From a virus: a stretch of 34,381 nt of DNA. Below, one piece after another: positions 9-34,014 of the stretch (positions are counted from its first letter, which is position 1; each line of letters opens with the position of its first letter). The notes beneath the pieces were generated by a model. That model did no database searches. It was given only the letters and a program-made list of their open reading frames with translations, and was not told where the DNA came from. The position numbers and the translations under genes are program-made. The stretch spans positions 1-34,381 of IMG/VR virus record IMGVR_UViG_3300035070_000745, one strand, 5' to 3'.

Positions 9-248
9 ATGAGCGAGCAGAAAATTCAGACCAAGAGAATTAAGCAGCTCGAAGCAGAGGGTTACTATGTGATAAAGCTAACCACTACAAATAAGAATGG
101 TATACCTGACCTGTTGGCTATACCACCACACACAGATGTTTTATTTAGCGAGATAAAGACTCCCAAGGGAAAGCTATCTTCGCTTCAAGAATATAGACTA
201 AAAGAATTAGAAAAATATGGATTCAGAACAGAAGTATACAGAGGGTGA
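9..248 (+). CDS. VRR-NUC domain nuclease
   Basis: A 79-residue stand-alone VRR-NUC protein, a PD-(D/E)xK-type nuclease common in phage replication and recombination modules. The sequence shows the family layout: G31-I-P-D34 followed by a hydrophobic strand, then E48-I-K50 and Q60 in a helix, matching the metal-binding D...ExK...Q core. The length is typical for the phage single-domain form. Family members cut branched or flapped DNA or act as Holliday-junction-type resolvases; the exact substrate here is inferred, not seen. It starts 8 bases into the window, so its ribosome binding region is cut off. It is the first of a tightly packed + strand group that continues to 1819. Confidence 0.85.
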   Translation: MSEQKIQTKRIKQLEAEGYYVIKLTTTNKNGIPDLLAIPPHTDVLFSEIKTPKGKLSSLQEYRLKELEKYGFRTEVYRG

Positions 249-594
249 CGAGCATCCAATAGTAGGAAGACTTGAGATGGATGGGTGGTTCTTTGAAGCC
301 CTATCTGATTTCACAGACTACGCAGACGATATACTCACACAGCTTGTTGAGGTTACAGACTACCTACCGATAGAGGATAGATGGGCACAGCAGATGGTTG
401 GTGTGGTAAAGGGAAAGTATCCATTATTCTTTCGCATAGAATTTTTAAACACGGCAGGGGAACTACCATTGCTACTTGACTTTGAGTCTATTGACTCAGA
501 CACATACTTAGATTACATTAACTTAGATAAATCAATACAATTTTACTTAAATAAAAAAAAATATGACAACACAAACACAGACACAGACAGCTAA
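217..594 (+). CDS. hypothetical protein, early operon
   Basis: A 125-residue acidic protein that I do not recognise. The ATG at 217 follows an A-rich stretch and overlaps the nuclease gene by 32 bases. An alternative ATG at 277 would give about 105 residues with no overlap, so the start is uncertain. The body is rich in Asp, Tyr and Leu (for example DFTDYADDILTQLVEV) with no membrane segment or known motif. The C-terminus ends in a low-complexity Asn/Thr/Asp tail that reads through the start region of the next gene. Location between a nuclease and a DnaA-like protein suggests an early, DNA-related role, which is inference from context only. Confidence 0.6.
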   Translation: MDSEQKYTEGDEHPIVGRLEMDGWFFEALSDFTDYADDILTQLVEVTDYLPIEDRWAQQMVGVVKGKYPLFFRIEFLNTAGELPLLLDFESIDSDTYLDYINLDKSIQFYLNKKKYDNTNTDTDS

Positions 595-1120
595 AGAGAC
601 ACAGAACTCAGTAAGAATGAACGCATTGAAGGACATTATCCAACACCACTTAGGCGTGGATGTAATAAAAGATAAGTCCCGAACAAAAGAAAAGGTAGAG
701 GCACGTATGATGTTCTCCTACATAATGAAAGAGAAAGGATACGGACCATCAGAGATAGGAAGGTTCCTTAAAAAAGACCACACAAGTATTATCCACTACT
801 TAAAAACATTTGAGTGGTACTTGAAAACAGACAAGGCATTGAGCGAAGACTACGCTGTTGTTAGGAAATCGTTCGTAAATGACTTGGGTCACATATTTGA
901 ATTTACAAATTCAGAGTTAACCAAGGAAATCTTTTTTTTGCAAAACAAAATAAAAGAGTTATATTCCGAGCAGAAAGAATTAAAGGATAGCATTGAATCA
1001 TCTTACAAGACAAAGGGCAGGCTCCAAGATATATTTAAACTTATACAAGAGCGAACTCGAATTGGGGCAGAAGATGAGGTGCTAAAGAAGTTAAATCATT
1101 TCTATAACGGATTACAATAA
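563..1120 (+). CDS. stand-alone DnaA domain IV-like DNA-binding protein
   Basis: A 185-residue protein whose residues about 20-90 match the C-terminal DNA-binding domain of DnaA (Bac_DnaA_C). The visible core is K/R at 40-46, A-R-M-M at 47-50, the helix-turn-helix IGRFLKKDHTSIIHYLK at about 65-81, and the box-contacting D-H-T-S motif (DHTT in bacterial DnaA). The AAA+ ATPase domain is absent. Residues 110-185 are predicted coiled coil with many Lys and Glu, so it may dimerise. The N-terminus is a Thr/Gln-rich repeat. The ATG at 563 sits behind a run of As; a later ATG at 617 is possible. Likely role: binding DnaA-box-like sites for replication initiation or for regulation of host DnaA. The function is inferred; the domain call is firm. 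Confidence 0.8.
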   Translation: MTTQTQTQTAKETQNSVRMNALKDIIQHHLGVDVIKDKSRTKEKVEARMMFSYIMKEKGYGPSEIGRFLKKDHTSIIHYLKTFEWYLKTDKALSEDYAVVRKSFVNDLGHIFEFTNSELTKEIFFLQNKIKELYSEQKELKDSIESSYKTKGRLQDIFKLIQERTRIGAEDEVLKKLNHFYNGLQ

Positions 1121-1720: not shown

Positions 1721-1819
1721 ATGAACGATAATCAAAAAAAATACTTAGAATTTACAGCAGCATTGGCATTAAACTCAATGCTACTGTATGTTATATATAG
1801 GGTAATAGTTAGTCTTTAG
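1721..1819 (+). CDS. 32-residue single-span membrane peptide
   Basis: A short frame starting 4 bases after the preceding stop: ATG at 1721, TAG at 1817-1819, 32 residues. The N-terminus is polar (MNDNQKK) and residues 9-32 form a hydrophobic stretch long enough for one membrane helix (LALNSMLLYVIYRVIV). It continues the + strand operon with the same tight spacing, and its stop overlaps the end of the opposing 2272-residue gene by 4 bases. Small membrane peptides at operon ends in phages often act in superinfection exclusion or host-membrane modification; that is only a possibility here. It could also be a chance frame. Confidence 0.45.
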   Translation: MNDNQKKYLEFTAALALNSMLLYVIYRVIVSL

Positions 1820-4800
1820 TTTCGACTTTCTCTTTTACCTCGGCTTTCTCTTTTAGCTCGGCTTTCTCTTTTACCTCTCCCTTTCGACTTTTTCTTACTC
1901 ATATTATTCATATCTTTATAGATTTGTTTACGAGTCAAGCTTCGTAAGTCTTTATAGAATGGTATAACTCCAAGGTGTCCCAACACTTCTAACATTGCTA
2001 AGTTTTTCTCTTTGTCATATTTACTTTGAGTCTCTTCGGTTTTAGCATCAGGCTTAGTAAAAGCTGATGTTGCAAATCTTGAGGACTTTAATAGTGGAGA
2101 GTATGGTCCTGTTAAATTTACGAGTACATCATAGATATCAACACCACGCCCCATCTTGCCTTCAGGGACAACCTTGTAAGACAATCCATCTTTGTAGATA
2201 TTGTAATCTCCATTTCTCAATCCTGTCAAGAACTCTTTGTTAACAGGTTCTGTGATAAGCTGATTAATTACTGCCTTCGTAGCGTTACCAAAGTCTCGAC
2301 CTAATCCCATAGAGAAAACAGAAGATGCAATTGCTTGACCTAATTGTTGGTCAAAATCTTTCTCATCATCTTCTTCTTCACCAAAGAATAAATCAGACAT
2401 TATACTTGACATTAGTGTATAACCAACCATACGAGATGCAGTTGCCCCTAATAAAGCAGCTCCTTTCTTCTTGCTCAGATTACCTCTACCTATTGCATTC
2501 ATTACACCTGTACGAGCAGTCACATATTCATAGACAAGGAAGGTTGTCATAAAGTTATTAAACCTATTATACATCTTAGCCATTGCACTTGCATTGGGCT
2601 TGCTTACTCCTCTAAGTGTACCCATAAAAGGGTTGGATGCTGCACCTGCCATTACTGATGCTTCGTCTGCTTTCTTAGTTGACTCTTTTAATTGGTCTTT
2701 GTACTGACTCATATAGTCAGCATCATTCTCAGCTATCTTATCTAAGTTGGGCTTCTCTCCTGTTAGTTTCTCAAACTCAACAGAGAATGTACCAAACCAC
2801 ATAGGTCGCATTATAATCTTATCGGGAGTGGATATTAACAAATCAGCTAAACTCCCAACACCTTGCACCCACTTGCTACCTGTCATACTCCAAACTTGGT
2901 CTACCCTATTGGTATACCTGTCTTTTGCAGACTTAGCTTTCTTAGCTCCTTCCCCGGACATTAAGTTAGTGTCAATCATTCTGCCCGACATATCTCCGTT
3001 TGGATAGATACGAGTTATGTTTGTGCTTTCAAGGTTCTTCATTGCTTCAGGAGCAGCGTCACTATTTAAGAAACCAACTCCTATTTTAGCTCCGGAAGTA
3101 AATTCCTTTGGACTTGCAATCATAGCAAACGCTGTGTTCGATGAAAGTTCTGCTATAAATCGAGGAGCACTTGCAAGTATTGCTCTATATCCATTTCTAT
3201 TTATCCAATCTAAAACTCTATCAGCAAAAACAGATTTTTGATAAGCCTTGTTAAATTGATTGTCTATCGACTCTTCCCAACCTTTTCTTATACCATTGAA
3301 TATATCTCTTTTTTCTTGATTATAATCTCCACTTTCTTTTAGTTTCTTCTCTGTTGAGTTCAACGTTCTCTTTGAAGTCCTAACAGGCTCAGTCATATAA
3401 AAGTCTAACAAGACACCTTTAGCTCCCTTAGTCGCTGACTTATACACATCAAAATTCAATGCTGAAATTGCACCCGTTCTTTTAATCAACGACTTGGCTT
3501 TGGTGGAAGGCTGAAGACTTTCTCTGTGCTTCTGAGCATTAAACTCCATAGCATCAAATCCCTCTTTATTTATAGTGTTCAAGTGAACATAATTATTTCT
3601 TGGTATAATACTCTCACCTCTAATTATTGCAGCAGTCTGTTCCGCAATAGGACCTAACTCAGCATTCACCTCTTGAATAGTTTTAATAGAAGCCTTCTCA
3701 GCCTTATTGAAACTTTCGTACAATAGTTCTGCATCAATCTCTCCCGTCTCTTTATTGGTAAACTTATCTAAGATTTCTTGCAACATTTCAGAATCCGATG
3801 CACCATACACTTCAAGGTTTTGGTCTTTGATTGAATCTATATTCTTTTCTATAAATGCTTTAGCTTGGTTTACTTCAGGATTACCTAAATTGGAATCATA
3901 TTCAAGCTGAATCATATAAACCATTTGCTTGAACTTAGACATCAATGTCTTATTACCGTTGTTTTTAAATGACTTATAAACAGCATCCTCAGCTTTGTCT
4001 ATTTTGCTTGACACTTTTTTAAAGGCTACTTCGTATTGCTCAATAGCTTTAGCTGTGTCTTCAAACAAAGACTCGTATAAAGGCTTTCCATAAAAGTCAC
4101 CGAACAATTGGTCGATGTAATACAATGGATTCCTTCTTATCATTTCAAGTACAGCACCTTTTTTAGTAAACATACTCTTGAATGCACCTATACGTTTAGA
4201 TAGTGGGAGCATCTTGGCATTACCAATAGCATCTACCATTGTGTTTGATTTTAAATTGGCAGCCATTTTCTCAACCATCACTTGAGCTAAGTGAGGGAAG
4301 TATCCATTGTTGATATTATCAATTAGTGCCTCAACTTGATTTAGCTCCTGAAGAGATAAACCATCTAATGCATCTACGCTGTTTATTAAAAAGTTAAACT
4401 TATCTCCTTGTTGTCTTTCGTACTCACTTGAAAGCTCTGAAACTTTTAAAGCAGGAGCTTCACTTATACTCTTAATGGCTTCTTGTCTTTCAGCCTCTAT
4501 TTCCTCTTCACTTTTAACTTCCTTGACTTTTTTAGGTTGGATTTCAGATTTATACTTTGTCATTATCTCAGCATCTGCTTCACTAATAACCTCTTCATCC
4601 AACATTTTCTTTATAGTCTTAGCATAGTCAAGTTGCCCTGTCTCTTCATCGACTACCTTGTTTCCAAAAGACTCTAAGCTATCTTGTAATTCAGGTATCT
4701 TTGATAGCTCTAAGTCAACTGCATCAAGTATATCCTTGACTACCTTAGCAGTCTCTGACATTTCATTAAGGTTTAATACAGTTTTTCTTTCCCCAAACTC

Positions 4801-7800
4801 TGAAGCCAATTCCATATATTTATTGAATACTGACTCAGGAATAAGGTTTGGATTAATTGCAAATATTCTTTGCAAATCTCCTGATACTGCACTTGCAAGA
4901 CCAATCTTACTTTTTATATTTGTCTTAGCATTTTTTCTTAGCTTGTTTGCCTTAGCAATATTCTCTGCATAGTTTGCATCTCTAAAGACTCTGCCCATAT
5001 ATTCAACAAAGTTTTCAATAGACTTTTCTTTGAGCATATTTACATTTGCAAATTTCTTAATAATTGCAGCAGACTGCTTGGTTGATATATTGCCCGACTT
5101 AACCATCTCTTTTACATCTTTAGCAACTTGAGTGCTTGTAGATTTAAAAGCCCTTAGAGCATCCTTTGCTCCCTTGTTTATGTCTCTAATCCTCTGTACA
5201 ACTAACTGCTTCTGAGACATTGTAACCTTCTTGCTTGGGTCAACACCAAGTATTTTCTTTACTGATGGTGCAGCCTTTTCTTTTATTCCAAGTTTTTTCC
5301 TTACATCTCTAAATAATTGTTCTCTTTGTATATCAGTAGCGTTCTCATATAGCTTGGTTCCTTGTAGGTATGACAATACATTTTTAGGTATCTCAGAAAA
5401 CTTTCTACCTCTTTGCTTTGACTTCTCTATGATACCATCTACCTCTTTTATAACACGCTGAGTTTCAATAGTTTGCTCAGGAGTAAGTTCTGCTTCTTCG
5501 GTAATTTCTGCTTCTGTTTCAACAGCTACCTCTTCCTTAGTAGCTACTTCTTCCTTAGTAGCTACTTCTTGTGCAGCTCTAACTTGTGCTATCTTAGAGT
5601 CGTATGTAGCTTCAATTTTACTTACGTCTTCATCCGTAAATGGCTTACCATCAACAACAGGAGCTTCTCCTGTTTTCTCAGCTTCAGCCTTAGCTAATAC
5701 ATAAGGCTCTAACTCAGCAGCTTTCTCTTGCTCTAATGCAGCTACTTCTTCCTCGACTTGCTGTTCAGCTTTGTCGGCTTCGACTTCAGTCGGTTCGGTA
5801 ATGGTCCCTGTTCCGGGTACTGTTTCTCCCATTGTTGGGCGACCTTCGGCAGGTTCTTGTGCATCCACCGTCTCTGTGCTTGGCTCTTGAATGGCATCTT
5901 CTTTTGTTTTTGAAAGTTCTACAAGTCTCTCGTTTATATTTGCGAGTTCCTCTATTTGTGGTGTAGCTAACTTAGGGTCAGCTCCTTCTATCTCTTGTTC
6001 TAATTGTTTTTTTCTATTAAGAATAGTAAACGCCTCTGATTTACTTTCCGCAGGTGCATCTCCTTGAAAGAACTCCTTATTGGACTTTAGTATACCAATA
6101 CCCTCGTTCAACGCAGAAAGTTCAGCTTCAGCACCCTTCTTTGTCATAAGACCACTCTCTACTTTAGTCTTTAACTTTGTTACATATATGCTCTTTAATT
6201 CTTCTCTTCCTTCAAATAATTGGAATGCATTAAAGTCATCTGCACTCATTGTGGTTTTATCAGACATTGCAGATTTTACCGCCTTTGGAGCACCTAATAT
6301 GCCACCTCCTACTGCTTCTTGTGCTCCTGCATATAGAGACTCTGCAATTATATCAACAAAGGTATCAGGATTCTCAAACATCTTTTTCCCTTTTACTTCA
6401 TTGTATATACCCTTTGCAGTTATGTCTGCTACCTCTTGAAGAAATCCTGTTTCAAACTCAGCAGCTCCTGCCGCACCAACTCTTATTAAACCTTTCGCTA
6501 AGGCACTATTTATCTCTGTCTCTACAAGGTCTGTAAATTGTTTAGCTGTTGTTCTTGCTGTGGACTTACCTACAACTTTAGACACAAGTTTATTTAGCAT
6601 ACCTCCACCCTTAAAAAGATTTGTAAGACCTACCTTTTCAAGAACACCAACCGTTAAAGCCAATGGTGCTTTTACAAACATTTTCTCTGATTCTTTTATG
6701 TCAGCAAAGTCAGGGTCATTTGATATCTCTTTATTCACAGCATCAGATGCAAAGGAAACCATAGCTAATGTTCCTGCCGGTGCTCCTACAACTGTAGCTG
6801 CCATAGCAGGTATACTCCTTGCCAATCCTAAAATAGCTCCACCAACAAATCCTTCTGACTCTAAAGCAGTCCATTGTTTTGTAGTTGATTCGTCTCCTAT
6901 TGCATCTACTAATCCTGTTCTAATAGCATTTAATGTACCTTTACCCAAGTCAGCATAGTCTGCTGCTTTTGAGAATATATTCCTTGGTATACCTTCTTTA
7001 GCATCTTCGTATCCTGCAAAATACTTTTTCCCCTTTCGAGATATATCAAGCACTTCTGAGAACGCCTTGTCGTAGTCTGTGAAATTTGCTCCGACTACAT
7101 TCTTCAATAAGGTTCCTGCTTCTATACCCTTGATAGCTCCTTCTGCTACTAAACCAATCTTTGTGGCTATATCTGTTGCAACAGGTGTCCTACCACCCAT
7201 AGATTTTTTTAACTCATCTAAGGTCATTTCCTCTGCGTTCTCAGGAATCTCTATATCATTCTCCTTAGATACCCTTATTATTTCTTTTTTAAAGTCTTCA
7301 TCGCTAAGACCTGAGCCTGCCTTTTCTTCAAGGTAAGTGGATGCATCAATTGCATAGTCAACTACTCCTGCTCCAACATCTCCAAAACCACCTAATACTT
7401 CATTGAATATACCACCCACATAATCGCCTTGCTTACCTCTTACGGTTGCAAAGTCACCTGCCATAACATCAAGCATAGCACCTTGCTTTTCTAAACCAAC
7501 TTTCTCTTTGATTAAGGCTTCTTTTTGTGCGGTAGCTTTAGCAGCATTTTCTACATAGGACTGATACTGTGAACTTAGTATTGGGTCTGCATTTATATCT
7601 TCAACAGATAAACCACTAAACACCTTACTATCTTCTATTAATTGGTTTTCAAGTGCGTTATAATCACTAACTGATTTTACATAATCTTTTGTCCTATCAT
7701 TGATAGCCATTATCCCCTGCTTAATACGGGCATCACTTCCTGCAATTAATTTTTCTTTGTCTTTGTCTTCAGGTTTAAATACATCTCTATTTTCCTCAAG

Positions 7801-8634
7801 ATATTTTTTTAGGTTTTTTGCTATATCTCCTGCATCATCAAACACCACATCTAAATTTACATATAATGGTGCAACCCCTTCTTTAGATACAATCATTCCG
7901 TCTCCAAACATATCAGTAGGTTTAAAGTCAAAACCATATTGTTTAAAGATATCATTCATAAAGGGAACAACATCTTCTTCATTGGTCTCAATAAGGTCTT
8001 CTGTTATGTTCTCCAAGTTGAATTTAAACTTGTCTTCCTGTGCTCTTTCTCCTATTATGCTTAACTCTTTTCTAAGTTCTTTTGCTTCCTCAGCCTTTTC
8101 TTCAATGGCTTCATCCATTGCTTCTTTACCAAGGGGGACATCAACTACAGATATATCAGCTTGAACTTGCTGCTTATATTCAGGGAATGTAGCTTCTTCT
8201 GCTCTTTGCTGTAATGATATTACAGCTTCTTCATCAGCTTTAGCAGCAGCCGCTATCTGAGCTTCGCTTGGAGCCTCTACTCCTTCATAAAATTTAGGTT
8301 GTACTTCTTGTGTTGGTGTCTCCTCTAATTGCTCAGTAAGGAATGACTGTAAGTCTTGAGGCTCTGCATCAGATTCTTGAGGCTCCAAAGAACCATCCAC
8401 CAAGAATGATTCCAAACCGTCTTTTTTTTTTACAGGAGGGTCTACAGGAATACCATTGTACTTTGCAAAAAAATCTTCTTTTCCTTTTGAATAAAAACCA
8501 TCTCTCGATACGACATTAAATACTTTCTCACGATAGTCACTATCATTATTATATCTTTGATAAAATTCATCCTCACTTTTTGAGTAGTAACCCTCTCTTG
8601 AAAGTAATTCGTATAGTTTTTTTATTTCGCTCAT
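1816..8634 (-). CDS. giant internal virion (ejection) protein, 2272 residues
   Basis: The longest gene of the window and the last of the late region. Its place after two other internal-protein-like genes matches the third and largest ejection or cargo protein of podoviruses (T7 gp16-like by position). Visible parts: two copies of a 24-residue motif at 6-29 and 37-60 (G-[YF]-Y-S-K ... F...Y-N); Gly/Ala-rich hydrophobic segments near 400-425 and 600-630; a Glu/Ala-rich coiled-coil region near 900-1060 containing a tandem 6-residue repeat; long helical stretches; a hydrophobic segment near 2055-2080 (GAALLGATASRMVGYTLMSS); and a very basic C-terminus with repeated K-R-E-S-R. I see no lytic transglycosylase signature and no DxDGD polymerase motif. 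Role inferred: enters the host with the DNA and crosses or lines the membrane. Confidence 0.7.
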   Translation of the reverse strand: MSEIKKLYELLSREGYYSKSEDEFYQRYNNDSDYREKVFNVVSRDGFYSKGKEDFFAKYNGIPVDPPVKKKDGLESFLVDGSLEPQESDAEPQDLQSFLTEQLEETPTQEVQPKFYEGVEAPSEAQIAAAAKADEEAVISLQQRAEEATFPEYKQQVQADISVVDVPLGKEAMDEAIEEKAEEAKELRKELSIIGERAQEDKFKFNLENITEDLIETNEEDVVPFMNDIFKQYGFDFKPTDMFGDGMIVSKEGVAPLYVNLDVVFDDAGDIAKNLKKYLEENRDVFKPEDKDKEKLIAGSDARIKQGIMAINDRTKDYVKSVSDYNALENQLIEDSKVFSGLSVEDINADPILSSQYQSYVENAAKATAQKEALIKEKVGLEKQGAMLDVMAGDFATVRGKQGDYVGGIFNEVLGGFGDVGAGVVDYAIDASTYLEEKAGSGLSDEDFKKEIIRVSKENDIEIPENAEEMTLDELKKSMGGRTPVATDIATKIGLVAEGAIKGIEAGTLLKNVVGANFTDYDKAFSEVLDISRKGKKYFAGYEDAKEGIPRNIFSKAADYADLGKGTLNAIRTGLVDAIGDESTTKQWTALESEGFVGGAILGLARSIPAMAATVVGAPAGTLAMVSFASDAVNKEISNDPDFADIKESEKMFVKAPLALTVGVLEKVGLTNLFKGGGMLNKLVSKVVGKSTARTTAKQFTDLVETEINSALAKGLIRVGAAGAAEFETGFLQEVADITAKGIYNEVKGKKMFENPDTFVDIIAESLYAGAQEAVGGGILGAPKAVKSAMSDKTTMSADDFNAFQLFEGREELKSIYVTKLKTKVESGLMTKKGAEAELSALNEGIGILKSNKEFFQGDAPAESKSEAFTILNRKKQLEQEIEGADPKLATPQIEELANINERLVELSKTKEDAIQEPSTETVDAQEPAEGRPTMGETVPGTGTITEPTEVEADKAEQQVEEEVAALEQEKAAELEPYVLAKAEAEKTGEAPVVDGKPFTDEDVSKIEATYDSKIAQVRAAQEVATKEEVATKEEVAVETEAEITEEAELTPEQTIETQRVIKEVDGIIEKSKQRGRKFSEIPKNVLSYLQGTKLYENATDIQREQLFRDVRKKLGIKEKAAPSVKKILGVDPSKKVTMSQKQLVVQRIRDINKGAKDALRAFKSTSTQVAKDVKEMVKSGNISTKQSAAIIKKFANVNMLKEKSIENFVEYMGRVFRDANYAENIAKANKLRKNAKTNIKSKIGLASAVSGDLQRIFAINPNLIPESVFNKYMELASEFGERKTVLNLNEMSETAKVVKDILDAVDLELSKIPELQDSLESFGNKVVDEETGQLDYAKTIKKMLDEEVISEADAEIMTKYKSEIQPKKVKEVKSEEEIEAERQEAIKSISEAPALKVSELSSEYERQQGDKFNFLINSVDALDGLSLQELNQVEALIDNINNGYFPHLAQVMVEKMAANLKSNTMVDAIGNAKMLPLSKRIGAFKSMFTKKGAVLEMIRRNPLYYIDQLFGDFYGKPLYESLFEDTAKAIEQYEVAFKKVSSKIDKAEDAVYKSFKNNGNKTLMSKFKQMVYMIQLEYDSNLGNPEVNQAKAFIEKNIDSIKDQNLEVYGASDSEMLQEILDKFTNKETGEIDAELLYESFNKAEKASIKTIQEVNAELGPIAEQTAAIIRGESIIPRNNYVHLNTINKEGFDAMEFNAQKHRESLQPSTKAKSLIKRTGAISALNFDVYKSATKGAKGVLLDFYMTEPVRTSKRTLNSTEKKLKESGDYNQEKRDIFNGIRKGWEESIDNQFNKAYQKSVFADRVLDWINRNGYRAILASAPRFIAELSSNTAFAMIASPKEFTSGAKIGVGFLNSDAAPEAMKNLESTNITRIYPNGDMSGRMIDTNLMSGEGAKKAKSAKDRYTNRVDQVWSMTGSKWVQGVGSLADLLISTPDKIIMRPMWFGTFSVEFEKLTGEKPNLDKIAENDADYMSQYKDQLKESTKKADEASVMAGAASNPFMGTLRGVSKPNASAMAKMYNRFNNFMTTFLVYEYVTARTGVMNAIGRGNLSKKKGAALLGATASRMVGYTLMSSIMSDLFFGEEEDDEKDFDQQLGQAIASSVFSMGLGRDFGNATKAVINQLITEPVNKEFLTGLRNGDYNIYKDGLSYKVVPEGKMGRGVDIYDVLVNLTGPYSPLLKSSRFATSAFTKPDAKTEETQSKYDKEKNLAMLEVLGHLGVIPFYKDLRSLTRKQIYKDMNNMSKKKSKGRGKRESRAKRESRGKRESRN
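1822..1875. repeat. three tandem 18-bp repeats encoding K-R-E-S-R
   Basis: Three near-identical 18-bp units (1822-1839, 1840-1857, 1858-1875), differing at one or two bases, in the end of the 2272-residue gene. On the coding (-) strand they yield a basic C-terminus of repeated K-R-E-S-R with a Gly or Ala between. Confidence 0.9.
5525..5570. repeat. tandem 18-bp repeat, two and a half units
   Basis: Units at 5525-5542 and 5543-5560 differ at one base, and a partial third follows. They lie in the 2272-residue gene and encode a repeated six-residue E-E-V-A-T-K segment in its Glu-rich coiled-coil region. Confidence 0.85.
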
Positions 8635-8643
8635 ATTTTAGTA

Positions 8644-10542
8644 TTAATCTAATTCTGCTTCGCCTCCAACAACATCAAATGCTCCTGACAAGAAAGCCTC
8701 CTCGGCTCCCTCTTTTGATAGAGCGTCACCACCTGTAATGAATCTTAGTATATCATTTCTAATAGCTATTGCTTCTGCCTCACTATCTGCGTTTGTATTA
8801 AACTCCTTCTCCTTACCTTCTTCTGATACTATTGTAATATCATTGCCAAGAACTGTGTCCCTATCCCCAACCTTTGCTCCAAACTTTGCTAAAAAATCAT
8901 TTATCGAAGGTATTACCTTCGTATTGGTTTTATCATAAAACAAATCTGAACTCAAGCCCGAAGAATCCCCTGACTTAACAAAATCAGCTATTGCATCAGC
9001 GGCTGACCTTCTCTTACTTACAATTGCTCTACCTATAACACTTGGAACTTTATTAAATTCAAAGCCTGAAAGTTTTAACGCTTTGTCAACATCTGCCGTC
9101 CTTTTATTTGTTAGGAAGTTTGAAATACCAATTATCCATTCACCCTCATTTTGTGCTTCAGCAAAAGGGAAAGGTTCTCTACGAACTTCACCATCTTCTT
9201 TTATTGTTACTACAACTCCACTATCATCTCTATTTATTCCTATTATATTAGGATTAAGACCTCTCACTTGCTTTTCAGCCTGTGATACCTCTTTATCATT
9301 TCCACTATAAAGTTTTTCATAGAACCCAAATAAGTCCTTTCCCGAGACTGCACCTCTATCTGTTGTAGTTCTTCTACCTGAACCTCTATACACAGGTCTT
9401 GGTGCTTGCGTGATAGTCGGCTTTATTATTTCCTTAGTATCAATCATAATCTCTGATTGGTCCTTTAAAGCCTGCTCCGCATTAGCCTGTTGGATATCTG
9501 TTAAATCTGATACCACCCTCCCATTCTTATTTTCAAGTAGGATAATGGTTTCGTCTCGACTTCCATCCTCATTGAATACTCCCTTTGGGTCAAATGTTGT
9601 AGTGTACTGAGTACCACCCTTAACTGAGGTTATAAAGTCTATAAGTGTAGACGCACCTGCCATACTATTAACGGCTGATGACACTTGGCTCTTCGCCCAC
9701 TTATCTTGACTCTCATTAAACAATGAGATAGACTTGAAGTCCTCTTCTTTTATACCAAGCTCCTTAGCATACTCTGCATCTGTCTTATCTCCGTAGCGTT
9801 CTCTTTGTCTTATATCTGATACATCCTTAAATATACCTCTCTTGTAGGCATCTCCCATACTCTCAATGATAGTACGTTGGTCAGTACCTAAAGCCTTCGC
9901 TCTCTGTTCAGATACACCCATCACATCAAATCTTTTTACTGTCTGTCTTATCCTATCTCTAAGAGATGCTACTGTTGATAAGTTGTTAGGATTGGTGTCA
10001 GGTATTAAAGTACCGTCAGGTCCTTCAATCATTTTACCTATAGATACCACACCCGTCTCAGGATTTATTAAGAACTTATGCTCTTGAAAATTTGCAAACG
10101 ACTCAACATTAGCCATAATATCTAAATCAACTTGAGAGATTGTTCCATCCTCTACCATCTTCATCTTCTTTGAATACTCTTGATTGTAATCGTCAAATAG
10201 ACCAAACCCTTGATTTGTACCGTCCATAAGATTCTGCATCTGAATGGTGTAGTCTTTCTGTTTAAGTTGACCTGCTTTAAAAAGTTTATTAAGCATCAAT
10301 GACTGCTTTTTTAGGTCATCTGCAAAATCTAACGCAGCACCATTTAGCTGTGTGTTCTGCCCTGTAGGTATCTCGTTTAATGCATTCTGATAGTCTCTCG
10401 CTTGCTTATCAAAAGCAGCCTTCTTTTCTTCTCTTACACGATTCTCCTCTTGGAGCATACCGCTAAAGTTGGCTCCGACTTCCGCCCAATTTATCTGAGT
10501 ATCCTGAGCGTCTCTCTCTACATATTTATAACCTGTTGGCAT
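8644..10542 (-). CDS. probable internal virion protein, 632 residues
   Basis: A soluble, mostly helical protein with a Gln/Lys/Asp-rich N-terminal half and no membrane segment or enzyme motif. It lies between a 247-residue Ala/Gln-rich protein and the 2272-residue protein, 9 bases from the latter. That three-gene order after the tail genes is the usual order of podovirus ejection proteins (gp14, gp15, gp16 in T7) and of the cargo proteins of crAss-like phages, so a virion-internal role is inferred. There is a basic, Arg/Gly-rich linker near residue 385 (RGSGRRTTTDRG). Sequence alone does not prove the assignment. Confidence 0.6.
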   Translation of the reverse strand: MPTGYKYVERDAQDTQINWAEVGANFSGMLQEENRVREEKKAAFDKQARDYQNALNEIPTGQNTQLNGAALDFADDLKKQSLMLNKLFKAGQLKQKDYTIQMQNLMDGTNQGFGLFDDYNQEYSKKMKMVEDGTISQVDLDIMANVESFANFQEHKFLINPETGVVSIGKMIEGPDGTLIPDTNPNNLSTVASLRDRIRQTVKRFDVMGVSEQRAKALGTDQRTIIESMGDAYKRGIFKDVSDIRQRERYGDKTDAEYAKELGIKEEDFKSISLFNESQDKWAKSQVSSAVNSMAGASTLIDFITSVKGGTQYTTTFDPKGVFNEDGSRDETIILLENKNGRVVSDLTDIQQANAEQALKDQSEIMIDTKEIIKPTITQAPRPVYRGSGRRTTTDRGAVSGKDLFGFYEKLYSGNDKEVSQAEKQVRGLNPNIIGINRDDSGVVVTIKEDGEVRREPFPFAEAQNEGEWIIGISNFLTNKRTADVDKALKLSGFEFNKVPSVIGRAIVSKRRSAADAIADFVKSGDSSGLSSDLFYDKTNTKVIPSINDFLAKFGAKVGDRDTVLGNDITIVSEEGKEKEFNTNADSEAEAIAIRNDILRFITGGDALSKEGAEEAFLSGAFDVVGGEAELD

Positions 10543-10556
10543 ATTGTTCTATTATT

Positions 10557-11300
10557 TTATTTTTTGTATTTTCCTGTGATTGGGTCATATGTATAACCGG
10601 GCATAGGGAAAAGGGAAACATCTGTATCCATTTTAAAAGATGGCTGTCCGATTCCAAAGATATTGAATGCGTTAGGGTCAAAGGTTTTTGTAGGAGCAGT
10701 AGGTTGTACTTTTTTAGCTGCCGCCTCGGCTGCTTTTCGAGCTAATCTGTCTGCTCTTTTTTCCATATACAAAGGAATACCTTCAACGCCTTGCTGTAGT
10801 CCACTTATTGCACTCTGTATACCTTGCTGTGTAGATGCTGTTGCAGCTCTCTGTGCGTCTGCTGCCATCATCTGCTGACCTGCTACCTCCTCTAAGTCTA
10901 AGCCAACTCCTAAGTCTCTTAGTCTTGACTCTTCCTCAAGGACTGCTGCCTCAATGTTTGTCATCTCATCAGCCATAGCACTCCTAATCTGCTGCTGCCC
11001 TAACTGCTGTTGAGCGAACACCCTACCTGCTGTAGCTGCTGCTCCTCTCTCGCTCTCTATACCTGCCTGAGTAAGCTGTGCTCCTTGAACTAACATAGCC
11101 TGTCTCTCCAAGTCGTATGCCTCTTTCTTTATAGACATCTGCTCTGCAAAGTTTACATCCAACTTACCTCTTGCAGCAGCCATTGCCTGCTCTGCGTCTG
11201 ATTGTGCTTGACGCTTTAATCTGTTTTGCTTTGCCGCTTGAGCAAACGATGCACCTGCTGAGACTGTGCTTATTGCTAATCCTGCTATTACTCCTGACAT
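10557..11300 (-). CDS. internal virion protein, T7 gp14-like
   Basis: A 247-residue protein with a short Gly/Ala-rich hydrophobic N-terminus (MSGVIAGLAISTVSAGASFA), then a long Ala/Gln/Glu helical region, and a proline-rich C-terminal tail. This design, a glycine-rich amphipathic start followed by Gln/Ala coiled coil, is that of T7 gp14 and related small ejection proteins that insert into the outer membrane during infection. It is the first of the three-gene ejection group and overlaps the end of the cupin-like gene by 13 bases. The family call rests on composition and position, not on a strict motif. Confidence 0.65.
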   Translation of the reverse strand: MSGVIAGLAISTVSAGASFAQAAKQNRLKRQAQSDAEQAMAAARGKLDVNFAEQMSIKKEAYDLERQAMLVQGAQLTQAGIESERGAAATAGRVFAQQQLGQQQIRSAMADEMTNIEAAVLEEESRLRDLGVGLDLEEVAGQQMMAADAQRAATASTQQGIQSAISGLQQGVEGIPLYMEKRADRLARKAAEAAAKKVQPTAPTKTFDPNAFNIFGIGQPSFKMDTDVSLFPMPGYTYDPITGKYKK

Positions 11301-13600: not shown

Positions 13601-16600
13601 TTAACATCCACAACAAGAAGATTCCAAGTCTGCACCAAAACACAAGTTGACATTGTTAGGCTTTCTATAGTCATATATAAGATATAAAAAATCTCCATTA
13701 CTTCCATTAGGTACAGTAAAAGTACCCGTATATATATTGGGTGCTCCACTTGTATCTGTGGTTATCGAAATACCTGCCGCTAAAAGGCTTGCAATAGATG
13801 CCTGTGTATTTGGATAGTTTGTGCCACTTCTTAAAAACATAAAGTTATTTACAGATGTATCAAATGTCGCACTATCTCCACTCAGCTTATTGAATGTAAG
13901 GGTCATACTCGCACCATTCGGTGGTATAGACCCAACACCTTGTGGTCCTGTTGTAACATCATAGTATGACACCACAGGGTTACCTATGTCTGTTCCAAAC
14001 TTTACTTGGTTAGATGTTAGTGGTGATGTATACGTGCCATCTACAAACCTGTGTTGGTTATGAACCTGTAGTCCCTCTTCATTCGGACTCGTCACACACA
14101 CCTCAACAATACTAATAGTCTCAGATAAAGGACAGGTTACCGTAAACTCTATCGTCATATCAATTCTTGATATTATCTGTAGTGTTACCTCAGTTACATT
14201 TACCTCGCTCTTATCGAATACAATAGTTCCTGTTGGACCTGTATTGTTTAATACTTCTGTAACTACCCCATTATAGGTAGCAATCACATCATAGTCGTAA
14301 GGACCCTGAGTAGGTTTTAAAACCCTCCACGTAATAGGAGTCTCTCCAACTGCTGCACCCAACTCAAAACATCTACTATAAGGAGAGTCAGCAGTAATCT
14401 CTATTGTTTGTAGTATTCCACACGGAGCACATTCAATCTGTGCAGGTAAGTCTTGTTGGTTGGCTGTGATGACATACTCATTCATATATGGGTCAAAGCC
14501 ACCAAGTTTCTGCTTATCCATTGATACAAGGAACAAGTCTCTAAACCAAGTTCTCATACCATTCTGAGAGATAATCTCTAATGAATCACTCGGACCACTT
14601 GACCCTGTAAGTTTCAATACAGCTCCTCTCTTTGCGTCTGTGAAGTATTTATCAGGTCCCCATTGAGCAAAGCTCTCAGGGTTATTACTGATACCAAACT
14701 CCTCAATCCTTGCTATCTGAGTTCCTAACACTTGAGGTACTGAGGTAAGGGTGCTTCCACCTGCTGCATCAGAAAGTAAATTCTTACCACTTGCTAATAT
14801 GTATGATATCTTATCTTCTTGTAGAATCAGTACGTCTGTCTCTCTACCGAATAGTATTTCTACAGGACCAAAAGACTCTTCGAGTGGCTTGAAGTTAAGT
14901 AGCCCTCTATTAAACTCATTTAGTCTGTTTACATTTGACTCGTCTGAGTATGTACCACTATAGGTAATATCAGCAAAGCGATTAACCTGCTCAACCTCAT
15001 TTGCCTGTGTGGATGTAACCCTGTTGCCAAGTGCAAAAGGTTTACCAATGGCACTATCTCTAATCTTATAGCTCTCTACACCATTTCCAAATGCAAAGCA
15101 GTTAAAGAAATTTGTTTCGCATATTGCAGGAGTGGATGTAGATAAGTTTTGGTCTTGAACATTACCCAAATGTGTTCCTGCTGCTAATGCTGTATCCGTT
15201 ATTGATACAGGAAAAGTAGGTGTTGTAGTCGGAGATACCGTTGCACTACCACATATACCATTTACAACTACTGCTCCCGTAGGTCCGGGCTGAACTATTA
15301 CTTGTTTTGGTCTATCGTTTAAGTCACGATAGTCAAATGCAATAGGTGCAGGCTCTGCTATATTTATTTCTAATTGTATGCTACACTTATCTGTGCCTTC
15401 TATAATACCAAATGACTGAGAAGACTCGTACCAAATATCAGGAGATGCATCGAGTGGTTCGCTTTCAAATACGACAGTCTCGTCTGCTCTATACACAGTA
15501 ACCTCTGTCTTAAGGTATGAAGACCTTTTAGATGAACTTGCTAATCCCGTGCAAGCCTTAGTACCTGTAGTCCCTAAATATAATATATTATTTACAGTAT
15601 CCCTCCAAAACTCCCAATAGTTTGTACGCAAGTTTGTAGGCATATTTCTTGTGGCAGGAGGTGCATAAGGAGTAGGTGTGCCATTATTTATAAACTGATT
15701 TGACTGAGGACCTATATTTATAGCCCCATCATTTAATGTGAGAGCAATGTTATCGCCTACAAACCAATCATAGAGAGTGTTGTAATTAGCAGATGCCGTA
15801 TATGTTCTATCTAATTGGTATTCTATTCTCTCACAAGCACTACTCCTACCTACTCTTAGGTTTTTATAGTTAAGGACAATCACACTACCTGCCGGTATAT
15901 CAAAGTCAGAAAAAGTCCCCGGTAAAGTAGAATCATCAAATAAACTTAAATTCACAAACACATTGGGGAATCCTGAAGATACTGAAATTTCGCTTACAAG
16001 TGGTCCTATGATAGAATTGTCTTCTCTTTCTAATGAAAGGCTATTGTTATCTATCCTCATATACACACCACTCGGTACAGGTAGATTGATGTCAGGATTT
16101 TCAGATGATGGAACGTCAATAAAGTTTGCTTCCTTTGCTTCTTTCTCTAATACCGTAGCATATATACAATTATTTGCAGGACCTGAAGTATCTTTCTTTA
16201 CTATTAGTCTCTGACCTACTGTTATCTTAGCAGCGTTCTCTCCTTCAAGTAGGAAATATGTTTCACTACTACCGGGTTCTGTAAAATATACATTTGAGTA
16301 TATAGTCTCATATGTCTCTCTATCAGGCTTTATTGCAAACTTATATTGCGTAGCCCAAAAGGGAGCCTTCTGAGTAGTAGGTATAGTTACGTCAATACTA
16401 TTTATAGTATCGCAAGTAGAGCAAGGGAAAAACTCTGTATTGTTCTCACTAACTAATGAGGTAGTAGCTCTATTGAACTCGTCCATATAGACTATCCCTA
16501 TCTCGTATCCTCTATTGCTATGCAAGCTACCTGCATTTGAAGACAATAAAAAATCAACTTCAGAATTTACTATTGAAAAATACTCTGTATATAAATTAGC

Positions 16601-18265
16601 AGGAGTAAGAGGGTCTTGGTATTGTATAGCAGGAAACTGAAAGGTTATAGTGCCGGGAAATCCTGAAGTTGTATTTGCCGTAGTTATAACTGCTTGTTCA
16701 GCAGCACTTATACCACTCTCATATTTTTCATATGCCCCATTAAGAAGGTCAGCAAATGTAGAGTTATATATGTCTGTTAATGTTATTCCATCTTCTGCTG
16801 TAGCCATTGGCTGAATATTACCACCGGGTAAAGATGTTCCTACAGCCTCTTGCCACTCATCACTTAGAAATAAGTCTACAGTGCTCGTATAGTCTCTTGT
16901 AAGAAAAAATGTAAACGAAAATGATTTCCCATCCCCATTTGTTTCTGTAGGAACAGGTGTCGTACTACCTGATGACCAACCAAAGTGATTAAACTCAAAG
17001 ACAAAATTAAGTGATGCTCCTGACTTTAGCTCTATACTTGAATCAAATTCAAAAGAAACAATCGAGTCGGTTACAGTATCAAATGGTCCACTTGAACCAA
17101 ATACGAAATCCCCATCAGTATATGTACCTATCTCTCCTCTTGTATTTTGGCTTTCTGATTTTTGAGAAGTAGTGTACTCAAGTAGTACATCATTACCATC
17201 ATTGTCTATCAAGTCAAATCCTTCAGTATAGTTACCGTACATAAGTCGGTTACCCATAACTGTCTGAGCCTTACTCAATAAGGGGACACTATCATATAGC
17301 CTAAGTATCTCTGACTCAGGGAGTATTGTAAATATCTTACTATTTGAAAATGTAAAGGTTTCTTCTTGGTAGTCTAAATATGATGACTTCTCTTTATCAA
17401 ATTTCTCTATTATCTTTATAGTAGGACTATCTGCATCTTTAAATAAAAGGTCGATACCTTTTACTAAAGGTCCTCCTGTATTAAAGGTTATAGTAGCTGA
17501 GTTAAAAGCATTTACCATTCCCTCATTTAATACACTATCTCCTGAGAACTCAAAAGCTCTTGGTACAAATGCAGGGTCTGTCCATTGAGATGTAGCTGAA
17601 TACTCATCATCAGCATACTTATATCTATAAGCAAAGCATATAAACCTCTCCTCTAAGAATGTTTGCTCTGATGTTGTACTCAATAGAGATACTTCAGGTG
17701 CTTGTGTTGGTGGTCTTTTTATTACCAATATATCTTCGTAAGAAAATCCATCTACACCACTAAGGGGCTTATCGTAATTTCTTTTTACATTTATCTGCCT
17801 TGGCTGATTAAAGTTATCTGTAAAAAATAACAAGTCCTCAACTTTATTTACGCCTGTTATTAGGTACTCAGGATTGAAATTTAGTGTAGTATTACCACTA
17901 CCACTTCCATCATTGATACTTATCAGATGGTATACAAGTGCCGTAGTGTTCACATTATAGGACACTACCATATCAAGTTTACCTTGATTAAAGTCTGAGT
18001 CGTGTATAAACCAATACATAGTCTCATTGGCTCCATCGTCAAATGCTCCTATACACCTTGCGTCAGCAGATAGCGGAGTACCATCGTACTCTAATGTTGT
18101 TAGCTGAGTATTCCCTTTAGAGTTCTCAAGGACACCTATCTCGGAGCCTTCTGTTGAACCCATACGAATGTTTAATGCATCAATGTACTCCCCGTTTGGA
18201 ACGAGTCGCTCATCGACTGATTTATTCATCCTACCTGCTATAAAGTTTCTTTGAATATTCGCCAT
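13601..18265 (-). CDS. large tail stabilisation / muzzle-like protein
   Basis: A 1554-residue beta-rich protein. The N-terminal signature at residues 19-36 (ERLVPNGEYIDALNIRMG) is shared by the tail stabilisation or muzzle proteins of crAss-like and many marine Bacteroidetes podoviruses, which build the barrel of the short tail. Later conserved blocks are visible near residues 1205-1245 (KYFTDAKRGAVLKL, then G-M-R-T-W-F-R-D). Beyond about 1290 the protein continues with Thr/Gly-rich beta domains and ends in a Cys knot-like tail (S-C-C-G-C). The part that normally finishes the propeller seems to be the separate 265-residue gene at 11825-12622. It starts 1 base after the upstream connector gene, in the order portal, capsid, connector, tail. 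Confidence 0.8.
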   Translation of the reverse strand: MANIQRNFIAGRMNKSVDERLVPNGEYIDALNIRMGSTEGSEIGVLENSKGNTQLTTLEYDGTPLSADARCIGAFDDGANETMYWFIHDSDFNQGKLDMVVSYNVNTTALVYHLISINDGSGSGNTTLNFNPEYLITGVNKVEDLLFFTDNFNQPRQINVKRNYDKPLSGVDGFSYEDILVIKRPPTQAPEVSLLSTTSEQTFLEERFICFAYRYKYADDEYSATSQWTDPAFVPRAFEFSGDSVLNEGMVNAFNSATITFNTGGPLVKGIDLLFKDADSPTIKIIEKFDKEKSSYLDYQEETFTFSNSKIFTILPESEILRLYDSVPLLSKAQTVMGNRLMYGNYTEGFDLIDNDGNDVLLEYTTSQKSESQNTRGEIGTYTDGDFVFGSSGPFDTVTDSIVSFEFDSSIELKSGASLNFVFEFNHFGWSSGSTTPVPTETNGDGKSFSFTFFLTRDYTSTVDLFLSDEWQEAVGTSLPGGNIQPMATAEDGITLTDIYNSTFADLLNGAYEKYESGISAAEQAVITTANTTSGFPGTITFQFPAIQYQDPLTPANLYTEYFSIVNSEVDFLLSSNAGSLHSNRGYEIGIVYMDEFNRATTSLVSENNTEFFPCSTCDTINSIDVTIPTTQKAPFWATQYKFAIKPDRETYETIYSNVYFTEPGSSETYFLLEGENAAKITVGQRLIVKKDTSGPANNCIYATVLEKEAKEANFIDVPSSENPDINLPVPSGVYMRIDNNSLSLEREDNSIIGPLVSEISVSSGFPNVFVNLSLFDDSTLPGTFSDFDIPAGSVIVLNYKNLRVGRSSACERIEYQLDRTYTASANYNTLYDWFVGDNIALTLNDGAINIGPQSNQFINNGTPTPYAPPATRNMPTNLRTNYWEFWRDTVNNILYLGTTGTKACTGLASSSKRSSYLKTEVTVYRADETVVFESEPLDASPDIWYESSQSFGIIEGTDKCSIQLEINIAEPAPIAFDYRDLNDRPKQVIVQPGPTGAVVVNGICGSATVSPTTTPTFPVSITDTALAAGTHLGNVQDQNLSTSTPAICETNFFNCFAFGNGVESYKIRDSAIGKPFALGNRVTSTQANEVEQVNRFADITYSGTYSDESNVNRLNEFNRGLLNFKPLEESFGPVEILFGRETDVLILQEDKISYILASGKNLLSDAAGGSTLTSVPQVLGTQIARIEEFGISNNPESFAQWGPDKYFTDAKRGAVLKLTGSSGPSDSLEIISQNGMRTWFRDLFLVSMDKQKLGGFDPYMNEYVITANQQDLPAQIECAPCGILQTIEITADSPYSRCFELGAAVGETPITWRVLKPTQGPYDYDVIATYNGVVTEVLNNTGPTGTIVFDKSEVNVTEVTLQIISRIDMTIEFTVTCPLSETISIVEVCVTSPNEEGLQVHNQHRFVDGTYTSPLTSNQVKFGTDIGNPVVSYYDVTTGPQGVGSIPPNGASMTLTFNKLSGDSATFDTSVNNFMFLRSGTNYPNTQASIASLLAAGISITTDTSGAPNIYTGTFTVPNGSNGDFLYLIYDYRKPNNVNLCFGADLESSCCGC

Positions 18266-22502: not shown

Positions 22503-22546
22503 AATTTTTTTTTCTTTTTTTTTTAAATGTTAAACTTTTTTATTAA

Positions 22547-23686: not shown

Positions 23687-23709
23687 TATGTGTTTGATTT
23701 AATTGTTTG

Positions 23710-23717
23710 CAAATTTA
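23710..23717 (-). promoter_or_regulatory. possible -7 promoter box before scaffold gene
   Basis: TAAATTTG on the - strand fits TAnnTTTG and lies 23 bases before the scaffold ATG, in an AT-rich gap without a terminator. The preceding bases (TTTTGCC) match those before the box at 20180. Weaker than the TATCTTTG copies. Confidence 0.3.
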
Positions 23718-23747
23718 GGCAAAATATATTATAGTTTTTTTTGCTCA

Positions 23748-33883: not shown

Positions 33884-34014
33884 TACTTCTTCTTACCCAT
33901 CTTATGGTATACGCTTTTTTTAATTTGCTTCTCAGATGGTAGTCCTAACATTTCAGGTTTTCCTTTAGTCTTCTTGTTTGCTGCTGTGAAATATGGTTTT
34001 AAATCTTTTTTCAT
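33883..34014 (-). CDS. 43-residue basic small protein
   Basis: ATG at 34014, TAA at 33883-33885; the start overlaps the upstream TGA (ATGA) and the stop overlaps the next ATG. The protein is Lys-rich (MKKDLKPYFTAANKKTKGKP, then MLGLPSEKQ and a K-K-K end) without hydrophobic segments. Tight coupling on both sides argues that it is translated. Function unknown. Confidence 0.55.
   Translation of the reverse strand: MKKDLKPYFTAANKKTKGKPEMLGLPSEKQIKKSVYHKMGKKK

Follow-up and report, generated by a model that had tools for sequence, protein, structure and literature searches.

The window analyzed here is a 34,381-nucleotide stretch of viral DNA (IMG/VR record IMGVR_UViG_3300035070_000745), and positions 1816-8634 of its minus strand form a single frame of 2272 codons without interruption, whereas the plus-strand reading of the same positions contains many stops. 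The giant ORF reported by the first-pass annotation is therefore confirmed as an open frame, on the minus strand, and it has a full-length relative that is 95% identical. The codons differing between the two comprise 149 synonymous and 104 non-synonymous cases, with 69, 39, and 176 base changes at codon positions 1, 2, and 3, respectively. The gene is the last of a conserved trio encoding proteins of 247, 632, and 2272 aa behind the tail genes (Table 1). Where a locus has enough sequence upstream of the giant, 60 of 64 contain a homolog of the 632-aa protein and 58 of 63 a homolog of the 247-aa protein, these counts being drawn from 71 loci with duplicates still included. In T7, genes 14, 15, and 16 stand behind tail genes 11 and 12 in the same small-medium-large order as the window trio. 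The position of third, largest ejection protein is held by T7 gp16 and by the N4 virion RNA polymerase (vRNAP). The annotation of a syntenic giant, gp123 of phage phi18:3, records detection by virion MS/MS; the C-terminal part of gp123 has no detectable relationship to the C-terminal module described below, and neither has the Manatee giant.

Table 1. Features of the giant gene and its surroundings in the window.
Feature	Position	Strand	Basis or remark
Giant ORF, 2272 aa	1816..8634	-	Candidate for the largest, third-placed ejection protein in the ejectosome cluster
Basic C-terminal tail (residues 2246-2272)	1819..1899	-	Net charge count
Conserved C-terminal module as modeled (residues 1060-2245)	1900..5457	-	Almost all helix
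C-module core (residues 1482-1802)	3229..4191	-	Aligns to T7-type core/ejectosome chains at low Z
Glu-rich linker (residues 901-1058)	5461..5934	-	Several relatives have extra domains at the same place
Front module (about residues 203-965)	5740..8028	-	Common piecewise to some relatives
-1-frame tail of predicted short protein, RRFGIILGGWFFGASRI and stop	8369..8422	-	-1-frame conservation
A10 tract, codons GTA AAA AAA AAA	8422..8431	-	Proposed slippage site
N-terminal repeat 2 (residues 36-60)	8455..8529	-	Predicted helical hairpin
N-terminal repeat 1 (residues 5-29)	8548..8622	-	Modeled as a helical hairpin (pLDDT about 80)
632-aa protein, gp15 position in trio	8644..10542	-	phrog_35506, unknown function
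247-aa protein, gp14 position in trio	10557..11300	-	phrog_13764, virion structural
1554-aa muzzle/nozzle-like tail protein (context)	13601..18265	-	phrog_14478; N-terminal Pfam crAss_MUZ match, E 1.6e-9

Architecture of the giant protein

Few virion proteins of short-tailed phages had been expected to reach this size, an expectation that fails among the giant's own relatives: members that are neither interrupted (as L043 is) nor end at a contig edge span 1834-3590 residues, and larger giants occur in an elemo phage (3694 residues) and in the Manatee Spring phage (3859 residues). A length of 2272 residues is ordinary within the family. Several compositional features proposed by the first-pass annotation are borne out. 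The duplicated N-terminal motif is real, with a repeat score of 76 that none of 200 shuffles matched, and the tandem pair, which according to the first-pass annotation may be an attachment unit in the head or tail, is the rule of the family, being present in 43 of 47 members. The repeat and KKK occur together in none of the 319 other ORFs of at least 180 aa in the same sequences (all six frames, spurious ORFs included), and tblastn of the repeat against phages, at E up to 10, gave chance matches only. Concerted evolution of the two repeats does not hold as a general rule, since they are closer to each other than to their counterparts in other members in only 10 of 43 cases. The Glu-rich character is evident from 22, 22, and 19 Glu per 100 residues at positions 101-200, 901-1000, and 1001-1100, respectively, and the basic C terminus from a net charge of +8 over the final 22 residues; a charge of at least +4 over this length is found at 28 of 46 C termini in the family versus 6.9% of 5708 other 22-mers. 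On the other hand, the claim of at least three hydrophobic segments was not confirmed: two well-separated 19-residue windows have a mean hydropathy of at least 1.2 (residues 608-626, 1.58; residues 652-670, 1.36), which is no better than in shuffles, 143 of 200 of which contained a 19-mer of hydropathy at least 1.6.

The same annotation could name no enzyme motif, and we agree: no enzyme family was recognized in the giant in Pfam or NCBIfam, and the DxDGD, HExxH, and Walker A patterns are all absent. A loose transglycosylase pattern gave chance-like matches only, and the pattern scan produced no convincing polymerase motif. The sole strong match in a PHROG search was phrog_32588, of unknown function, over residues 1492-2249 (E 3.7e-67). 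A polymerase or transferase fold that would explain the size, and so speak against an ejection protein, was not seen in the giant, although enzyme-domain matches do occur in the middle part of some relatives. Between the N terminus and the C-terminal module these relatives have LPD23, DUF7178, and weaker ADP-ribosyltransferase (ART), metallopeptidase, and acetyltransferase (GNAT) matches. LPD23 is present in 8 of 49 family members, with every match above the cut-off, most of the ART, metallopeptidase, and GNAT matches lie under the Pfam curated cut-offs, and 11 of the 30 middle parts scanned gave nothing at E 0.01. The corresponding middle of the window giant consists of the Glu-rich linker only. 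Ahead of the linker, the front module was modeled as a small alpha/beta domain near residues 212-285 followed by a poorly modeled remainder (pLDDT 53 for the front model), and the matches of a fold search with the N-terminal model were filled by its coiled coil (residues 286-403). Across 44 members, the region ahead of the C-terminal module varies from 588 to 2395 residues; the front of the family is mosaic, with a constant C-terminal module behind it. The intervening region, from the N-terminal part to this module, is probably an exchangeable bay, with effector or processing domains in some relatives and no recognized domain in the window phage.

The C-terminal module, of about 1200 residues, has matches in 71 viral loci (partial ones in a few), and in 45 relatives it is 34-96% identical to that of the window. 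When its model was compared with known structures, the first four of 949 aligned chains were T7-type core/ejectosome chains (PhiM1, T7 twice, and E1004, with Z 8.4, 7.2, 6.5, and 6.0), whose lengths of 1101-1223 residues identify them as gp16; unrelated chains come next at Z 5.4-5.0, the C-terminal region of N4 gp50 appears at Z 4.6 and 3.9, and for helical proteins any Z lower than about 13 may arise by chance. With Foldseek, no PDB match reached E 0.001, the best standing at 0.1, whereas 68 BFVD matches had E 0.001 or lower; among the 50 listed, five are named polyvalent or ART-PolyVal proteins, and one is "Protein inside capsid D" of Marinomonas phage CB5A (E 5.8e-7). Sequence searches of the PDB returned nothing for P0001 and nothing meaningful with profiles of the C-terminal module, the 247-aa protein, and the 632-aa protein. 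Bacterial genome contigs scanned with the module yielded 64 pattern matches, none of them a relative and hence no provirus or host link.

The A-tract and the -1 frame

A run of 9-11 A's follows the N-terminal hairpins in 65 of 66 loci. Cultured phages with such a tract include Tenacibaculum phage Gundel, Cellulophaga phages Calle and phi38:1, and a Flavobacterium elemo phage. Where the tract encodes KKK, it is written AAA AAA AAA in all 46 members, as against 0 of 110 other KKK in the same proteins, and A10 is kept in the elemo phages and in L073 despite encoding EKKN instead. It is the homopolymer itself that is conserved at the base level, as in programmed slippage. Behind the tract, 31 of 45 members show stronger conservation in the -1 frame than in the frame of the giant itself, and in these matched members the synonymous share of one-base codon differences is 64% in the -1 frame, 23% in the 0 frame, and 12% in the +1 frame; a nucleotide match is absent in the other 14. 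An aromatic/Gly pattern is found in the -1 frame of 30 of 44 members (synonymous shuffles: mean 0.24, maximum 2) and is absent in 14. Selection on the shifted frame is thus evident for roughly two in three members. The +1 frame is also open for longer than in shuffles but has no conserved peptide. A DGS-type motif after the tract was first considered to belong to the giant protein, but coding in the -1 frame accounts for it better.

Only 1 of 47 members has a -1-frame start codon between the preceding stop and the tract, and the frame seems, judging from the sequences, to be reachable only through slippage. We predict that a short protein, 88 aa long in the window phage and consisting of the hairpins followed by a YYGITFGRWFIG-like tail, is made beside the giant; because the in-frame A10 tract hides a slippage product from gene callers, such a companion would have gone unannotated. 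Among the open-licence titles and abstract openings listed, none describes frameshifting or slippage for these phages or for ejection proteins, and the terms "ejection," "Cellulophaga," and "internal virion" are absent from the accessible portion of a recoding review.

The short protein might instead arise by -1 ribosomal frameshifting on A_AAA_AAA, as the heptamer is correctly placed relative to the reading frame and -1 is the alternative frame that shows conservation. However, 9-11 A's go beyond what a heptamer needs, no stimulatory RNA structure was found downstream of the tract (folding median z -0.48, with 8 of 47 members below -1.5), and SD-like boosters occur in only 4 of 47 members, so that we regard the ribosomal route as rather unlikely beside RNA polymerase slippage. 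Direct nucleotide conservation behind the tract (a median best match of 26 of 39 versus 17 in a control stretch) could also reflect a DNA or RNA signal with no second coding frame. This we find highly improbable, because the variable position is the third base of the -1 frame, where most one-base codon differences are synonymous as given above, and because the linker before the -1 motif varies in length and yet the register stays -1 in all 31 matched members. Replication slippage is common on long runs of A, and the occurrence of tract lengths 9, 10, and 11 might suggest a phase-variable switch in which genomic length changes turn the giant on and off; the A9 tracts and split frames of four Cellulophaga genomes would fit such an off state, or a sequencing miscall. 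That a switch operates is nevertheless barely credible, given that close relatives are equal in tract length (for example, L015-L017, L018/L052/L079, L024/L025/L077, and L049/L075) and that the giant remains in frame in the 46 members with KKK at the tract.

Proposed ejection role and related systems

Our analyses make it probable that the ORF encodes the third, largest modular ejection protein of a short-tailed phage related to flavobacterial phages, with a short companion made by slippage. For the designation as a modular ejection protein, proposed by the first-pass annotation, gene order and family architecture argue well, and the fold only suggestively. The giant could also be a head or tail structural protein that stays with the virion, as the annotations of its relatives say structural only and both the ejection-type structural matches (Z 8.4-6.0) and the best Foldseek match (E 0.1) are weak; we judge this improbable, because the trio order, the all-helical C-terminal module, the basic end, and the effector-type domains of relatives fit proteins that enter the host.

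Like T7 gp16, which acts with gp14 and gp15, the giant is encoded at the end of a cluster of three genes behind the tail genes, by the largest of them, it is helical with a basic C-terminal end, as is gp16 in the account of PMC8954989, and its best structural matches, at low Z, are T7-type chains; unlike gp16, it is nearly twice as long and has no recognized N-terminal transglycosylase. The vRNAP of N4 and DEV (Schitoviridae gp50/gp71) is a giant third ejection protein, outlined as a front, a middle enzyme, and a large C-terminal part (PMC12633501, PMC10925440, PMC5512222), and the N4 C-terminal region is among the structural matches, whereas the middle of the window giant has no recognized domain. 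With no polymerase match in Pfam or NCBIfam and no DxDGD, an N4-type virion RNA polymerase was rejected. Phage polyvalent proteins resemble the family in the LPD23 and the weaker ART-PolyVal and metallopeptidase matches of relatives and in the place of the gene among virion genes, as described in the relevant part of PMC5512222; the several activity domains of this class are partly present in relatives and none is recognized in the window giant, which we do not assign to it. The crAss001 cargo proteins gp45-gp47, reported as stored in head and tail before ejection (PMC10172136), are also encoded after the muzzle gene, but gp45 and gp47 have no sequence similarity to the window proteins in the pairs tested. 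In the pairs compared by hhalign, there was no similarity to T7 gp14, gp15, and gp16 or to crAss001 gp45 and gp47, a weak comparison of profile with single sequence. The giant structural protein of Elemovirus (3694 aa), on the other hand, has a homologous C-terminal module (hhalign E 7.9e-21; tblastn 22% identity) and an A10 near its start, differing in its greater length, a DUF3293 domain, and a tract that encodes EKKN. For slippage, the transcriptional slippage of Thermus dnaX and IS elements, in which a nine-A run gives a full-length and a short product, provides an outlined precedent (PMC1088944, PMC5009743); unlike those cases, the present one concerns a virion gene with the tract near the start and a conserved shifted-frame tail, and slippage is predicted only.

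The window giant is best read as a large ejection protein without a recognized payload. It would be stored in the head together with the 247-aa and 632-aa proteins and leave through the tail ahead of the DNA; the two smaller proteins may form the outer-membrane and periplasmic conduit, and the helical C-terminal module with its basic tail could have a packaging role and a site of action at the inner membrane or past it. At the A9-A11 tract after the hairpin pair, RNA polymerase, or less likely the ribosome, would slip, so that some messages would yield the short protein (hairpin pair and aromatic/glycine -1 tail) and the remaining ones the giant. A likely use of such slippage would be to control how much hairpin domain there is per giant in assembly or docking.

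Together, these data offer a testable architecture of N-terminal hairpins, exchangeable middle, and constant C-terminal module for giants whose annotation says only "structural" in Elemovirus and other flavobacterial phages, and they predict a second, unannotated protein from the start of the giant gene. As a tentative proposal, on which we would not yet wager, this group of environmental phages related to flavobacterial phages may use slippage to make a hidden second virion or assembly protein in fixed ratio with the giant; the tandem hairpins common to both would then build a shared docking ring or plug, keeping in order a few copies of an injector with exchangeable payload. If true, slippage could be a means by which phages adjust how much of an injected machine is delivered, which would be the first case of recoding in a phage ejectosome and would provide a natural modular system for studying phage protein delivery.

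Virion gene row and a probable ejection-protein class

The 2272-residue giant is read from a minus-strand frame of a virus contig of 34,381 bases (see table), and the virion genes lie on its strand, in the order terminase, portal, a 379-aa gene, a capsid-like virion protein (its capsid role suggested by phrog_13704), a 249-aa gene, two short virion proteins, a 1554-aa muzzle-like protein, small genes and then the trio of 247, 632 and 2272 aa. The host is probably a flavobacterium or another member of the Bacteroidota, since the 87 records matched by the muzzle-like protein come from phages of Flavobacterium, Cellulophaga, Tenacibaculum and Maribacter, together with one spring metagenome phage.

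Features of the window and of related phages
Sequence	Position	Strand	Feature
Window	9-248	+	79-aa protein, VRR-NUC domain (E 1.1e-8)
Window	563-1120	+	185-aa protein, DnaA DNA-binding helix-turn-helix (Bac_DnaA_C, E 6.3e-9); strand opposite to the giant
Window	1816-8634	-	Giant; single open frame, 2272 codons
Window	8422-8431		Tract, A10
Window	31504-32297	-	Amidase_2 endolysin (E 1.9e-13); adjoining 130-aa protein with hydrophobic stretch, by eye a possible holin
Window	33593-33883	-	Small basic protein, weak DUF5754 match
Window	34011-34373	-	Small basic protein, DUF5872 match (E 1.5e-13)
Elemo phage (L010)	10719-21803		Giant, structural protein; DUF3293 at residues 1323-1392 (E 1e-12)
phi18:3 (L013)	21633-27437		Giant; residues 1100-1889 resemble a Pseudoalteromonas phage Y3 protein annotated ADP-ribosyltransferase (27.7%, E 2e-73), residues 1350-1855 a putative structural protein of Pelagibacter phage HTVC027P
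phi18:3 (L013)	21310-27437		gp122/gp123, annotated as split at the A9 tract, as are the matching genes of phi46:3, phi13:2 and phi19:3

The trio stands in the same order as T7 genes 14, 15 and 16, and among loci whose sequence extends far enough in front of the giant (duplicates kept) homologues of the 632-aa and 247-aa proteins occur in 60 of 64 and 58 of 63, respectively. Passages in published work (PMC8954989, PMC10925440, PMC12633501, PMC10172136, PMC5512222) describe a class of three ejection proteins, the requirement of T7 gp16 for its basic end, an N4 vRNAP built in three parts and the cargo proteins of crAss001. Sequence comparison with the T7 and crAss001 proteins gave no similarity. 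The syntenic giant of phi18:3 is annotated "experimental MS/MS proteomics", and no counterpart of the C-module, the conserved C-terminal part of the giant, was detectable in it. The predicted model of this module is nearly all helix (pLDDT 79.1, pTM 0.77), and Foldseek against the PDB returned no significant match (best E 0.1). In a structural second look, the best four of 949 aligned chains were T7-like core or ejectosome proteins (Z 8.4, 7.2, 6.5 and 6.0), with unrelated rows from Z 5.4 and a tool warning that such values can be chance for helical proteins. The table gives no chain name, and these four are read as gp16 by their length (1101-1223 residues, against 196 for T7 gp14 and 747 for gp15); the C-terminal region of N4 gp50 scored Z 4.6 and 3.9. 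Because the top rows share one functional class and the same part of the model, we take the comparison as suggestive of T7-type ejection proteins. BFVD yielded 68 matches with E no higher than 0.001, among them an elemo structural protein (3.4e-21), a "protein inside capsid D" and, in the best 50 of the 68, at least five entries named polyvalent or ART-PolyVal. Its position and architecture place the giant, as a new member, in a functional class already known.

A constant C-module behind a mosaic front

Eight relatives of the giant were found in a first scan and 71 loci in a profile scan, which re-found those 8 contigs; 49 remained once sequences with over 75% identity along most of their length had been removed. 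The last ~1200 residues are constant, 45 relatives aligning with the window at 34-96% identity, and the C-module runs 1175-1375 residues to the frame end (43 members). The part before it measures 588 to 2395 residues (44 members), and the front half of the window's giant is only piecewise common to some members. Pfam domains in the 49 front parts (E 0.001) comprised LPD23 in 8 (again 8 of 49 in a repeat check, all over the cut-off), DUF7178 and the DUF6782 metallopeptidase in 4 each, DUF6861 and GNAT (Acetyltransf_7) in 3 each, SprT in 2, ART-PolyVal in 2 (one over the cut-off) and single others, e.g. a leucine-rich repeat; most metallopeptidase, ART and GNAT matches lay under Pfam's curated cut-offs. 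Scanning residue 800 to the C-module separately in 30 of the 49 members placed these domain matches between the front part and the C-module, and 11 of these 30 stretches had no match at E 0.01. None of the relatives' Pfam domains was found in the window's giant. The first-pass annotation had rightly described an N-terminal duplication, Glu-rich stretches and a basic C-terminal end; its "at least three" hydrophobic segments reduce to two weak ones, not above shuffles, and the size it thought exceptional is ordinary in the family, uncut members spanning 1834-3590 residues (interrupted L043 left out) and two named phages having giants of 3694 and 3859.

An A-tract after the N-terminal pair

The start is readable in the window and in 46 relatives, 47 members in all, and in 43 of them the N-terminal tandem pair is significant; the exceptions are L021, L027, L029 and L060. 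In L018, L020 and L038 the duplicated unit is a different one (TP-G motif, e.g. TPNG), with the A-tract still after it; two copies seem to be required although the unit itself changes. KKK occurs within the first 180 residues of 46 of the 47 members, against 59 of 631 other 180-residue stretches, and all 46 are written AAA AAA AAA, as are none of the 110 other KKK triplets of the same proteins; AAA makes up 54% of lysine codons overall (7125/13,123; 50 genes examined). These 46 tracts hold 10 A's in 40 cases, 9 in 5 and 11 in 1. The four genes lacking the tract KKK are L073, which has A10 yet encodes EKKN, and L041, L048 and L053, whose frames are cut or mis-started. Of the loci whose frame does not start at a contig edge, 65 of 66 carry 9-11 A's, the exception being L041 (A8), whose frame does not begin at the gene start. 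Apart from the tracts, the 974 kb of sequence contain 31 runs of A or of T with at least nine bases, 30 having nine and one having ten, where a first-order model predicts 61.

Named phages also have the tract: A10 in Gundel, Calle and phi38:1, A11 in Manatee, and A10 encoding EKKN in three elemo records. Four Cellulophaga Pachyviridae have A9; there the tract is the junction between an N-terminal ORF in one frame and the giant in another, and three of these genomes carry an annotation of the N-terminal ORF, by similarity, as a structural protein. Their A9 may be a homopolymer miscall, and the annotated start of the giant in phi18:3, phi46:3, phi13:2 and phi19:3 is probably wrong.

A hidden -1 frame and its predicted product

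After the tract, both alternative frames stay open longer than in synonymous shuffles (46 members; 50 shuffled means): 36.8 codons on average vs 20.0 (highest 24.7) for +1, and 25.8 vs 11.3 (highest 14.5) for -1. A conserved peptide follows in the -1 frame only, often as a basic linker, then a YYGITFGRWFIG-like stretch with a stop close behind. After removal of the near-duplicates L014 and L043, 30 of 44 members fit a simple pattern for this peptide, compared with a mean of 0.24 and a maximum of 2 in 300 synonymous shuffles; in the +1 frame none of the 44 fits it. Among the 14 members that do not fit in the -1 frame, several keep aromatic/glycine-rich -1 tails and others, e.g. L067, do not. 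Giant-frame codons here vary most at the second position, the entropies being 0.55/1.06/0.81 with a giant-frame anchor (20 members) and 0.83/1.35/0.97 with a -1-frame anchor (36 members); the C-module is opposite (1.06/0.79/1.59), with the second position above the third in 0 of 89 windows. A nucleotide anchor matches 31 of 45 members, all 31 in the -1 register. In these anchored members amino-acid identity between pairs averages 0.59 (-1), 0.42 (0) and 0.38 (+1), and synonymous changes among one-base codon differences number 1536/2403, 491/2162 and 274/2328, respectively; because the pairs are not independent and the anchor consensus comes from the same sequences, we attach no probability to this comparison.

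Only 1 of the 47 members has a -1-frame start codon upstream of the tract, and slippage out of the frame that encodes the N-terminal hairpin pair would be the simplest way into it. The short protein so predicted, the hairpin pair with a -1-frame tail, has 67-115 aa (median 98; 47 members); in the window it would be 71 residues plus RRFGIILGGWFFGASRI, 88 aa in all. Ribosomal frameshifting could also make such a switch, but RNA polymerase slippage appears preferable, because what is conserved is the run length, not a heptamer, and a search for a stimulator found none. Precedents for slippage are Thermus dnaX, with its run of nine A's, and IS elements (PMC1088944, PMC5009743). None of the open-licence matches listed describes, for a gene of this kind, a conserved slippage site together with a hidden frame under selection. 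We regard the recoding as strongly predicted from the sequence rather than demonstrated, and the short protein as a predicted product. As to its role in loading, we can only guess that, because the hairpin pair is common to both proteins, the short one may take the giant's binding sites and so set the number of giants loaded.
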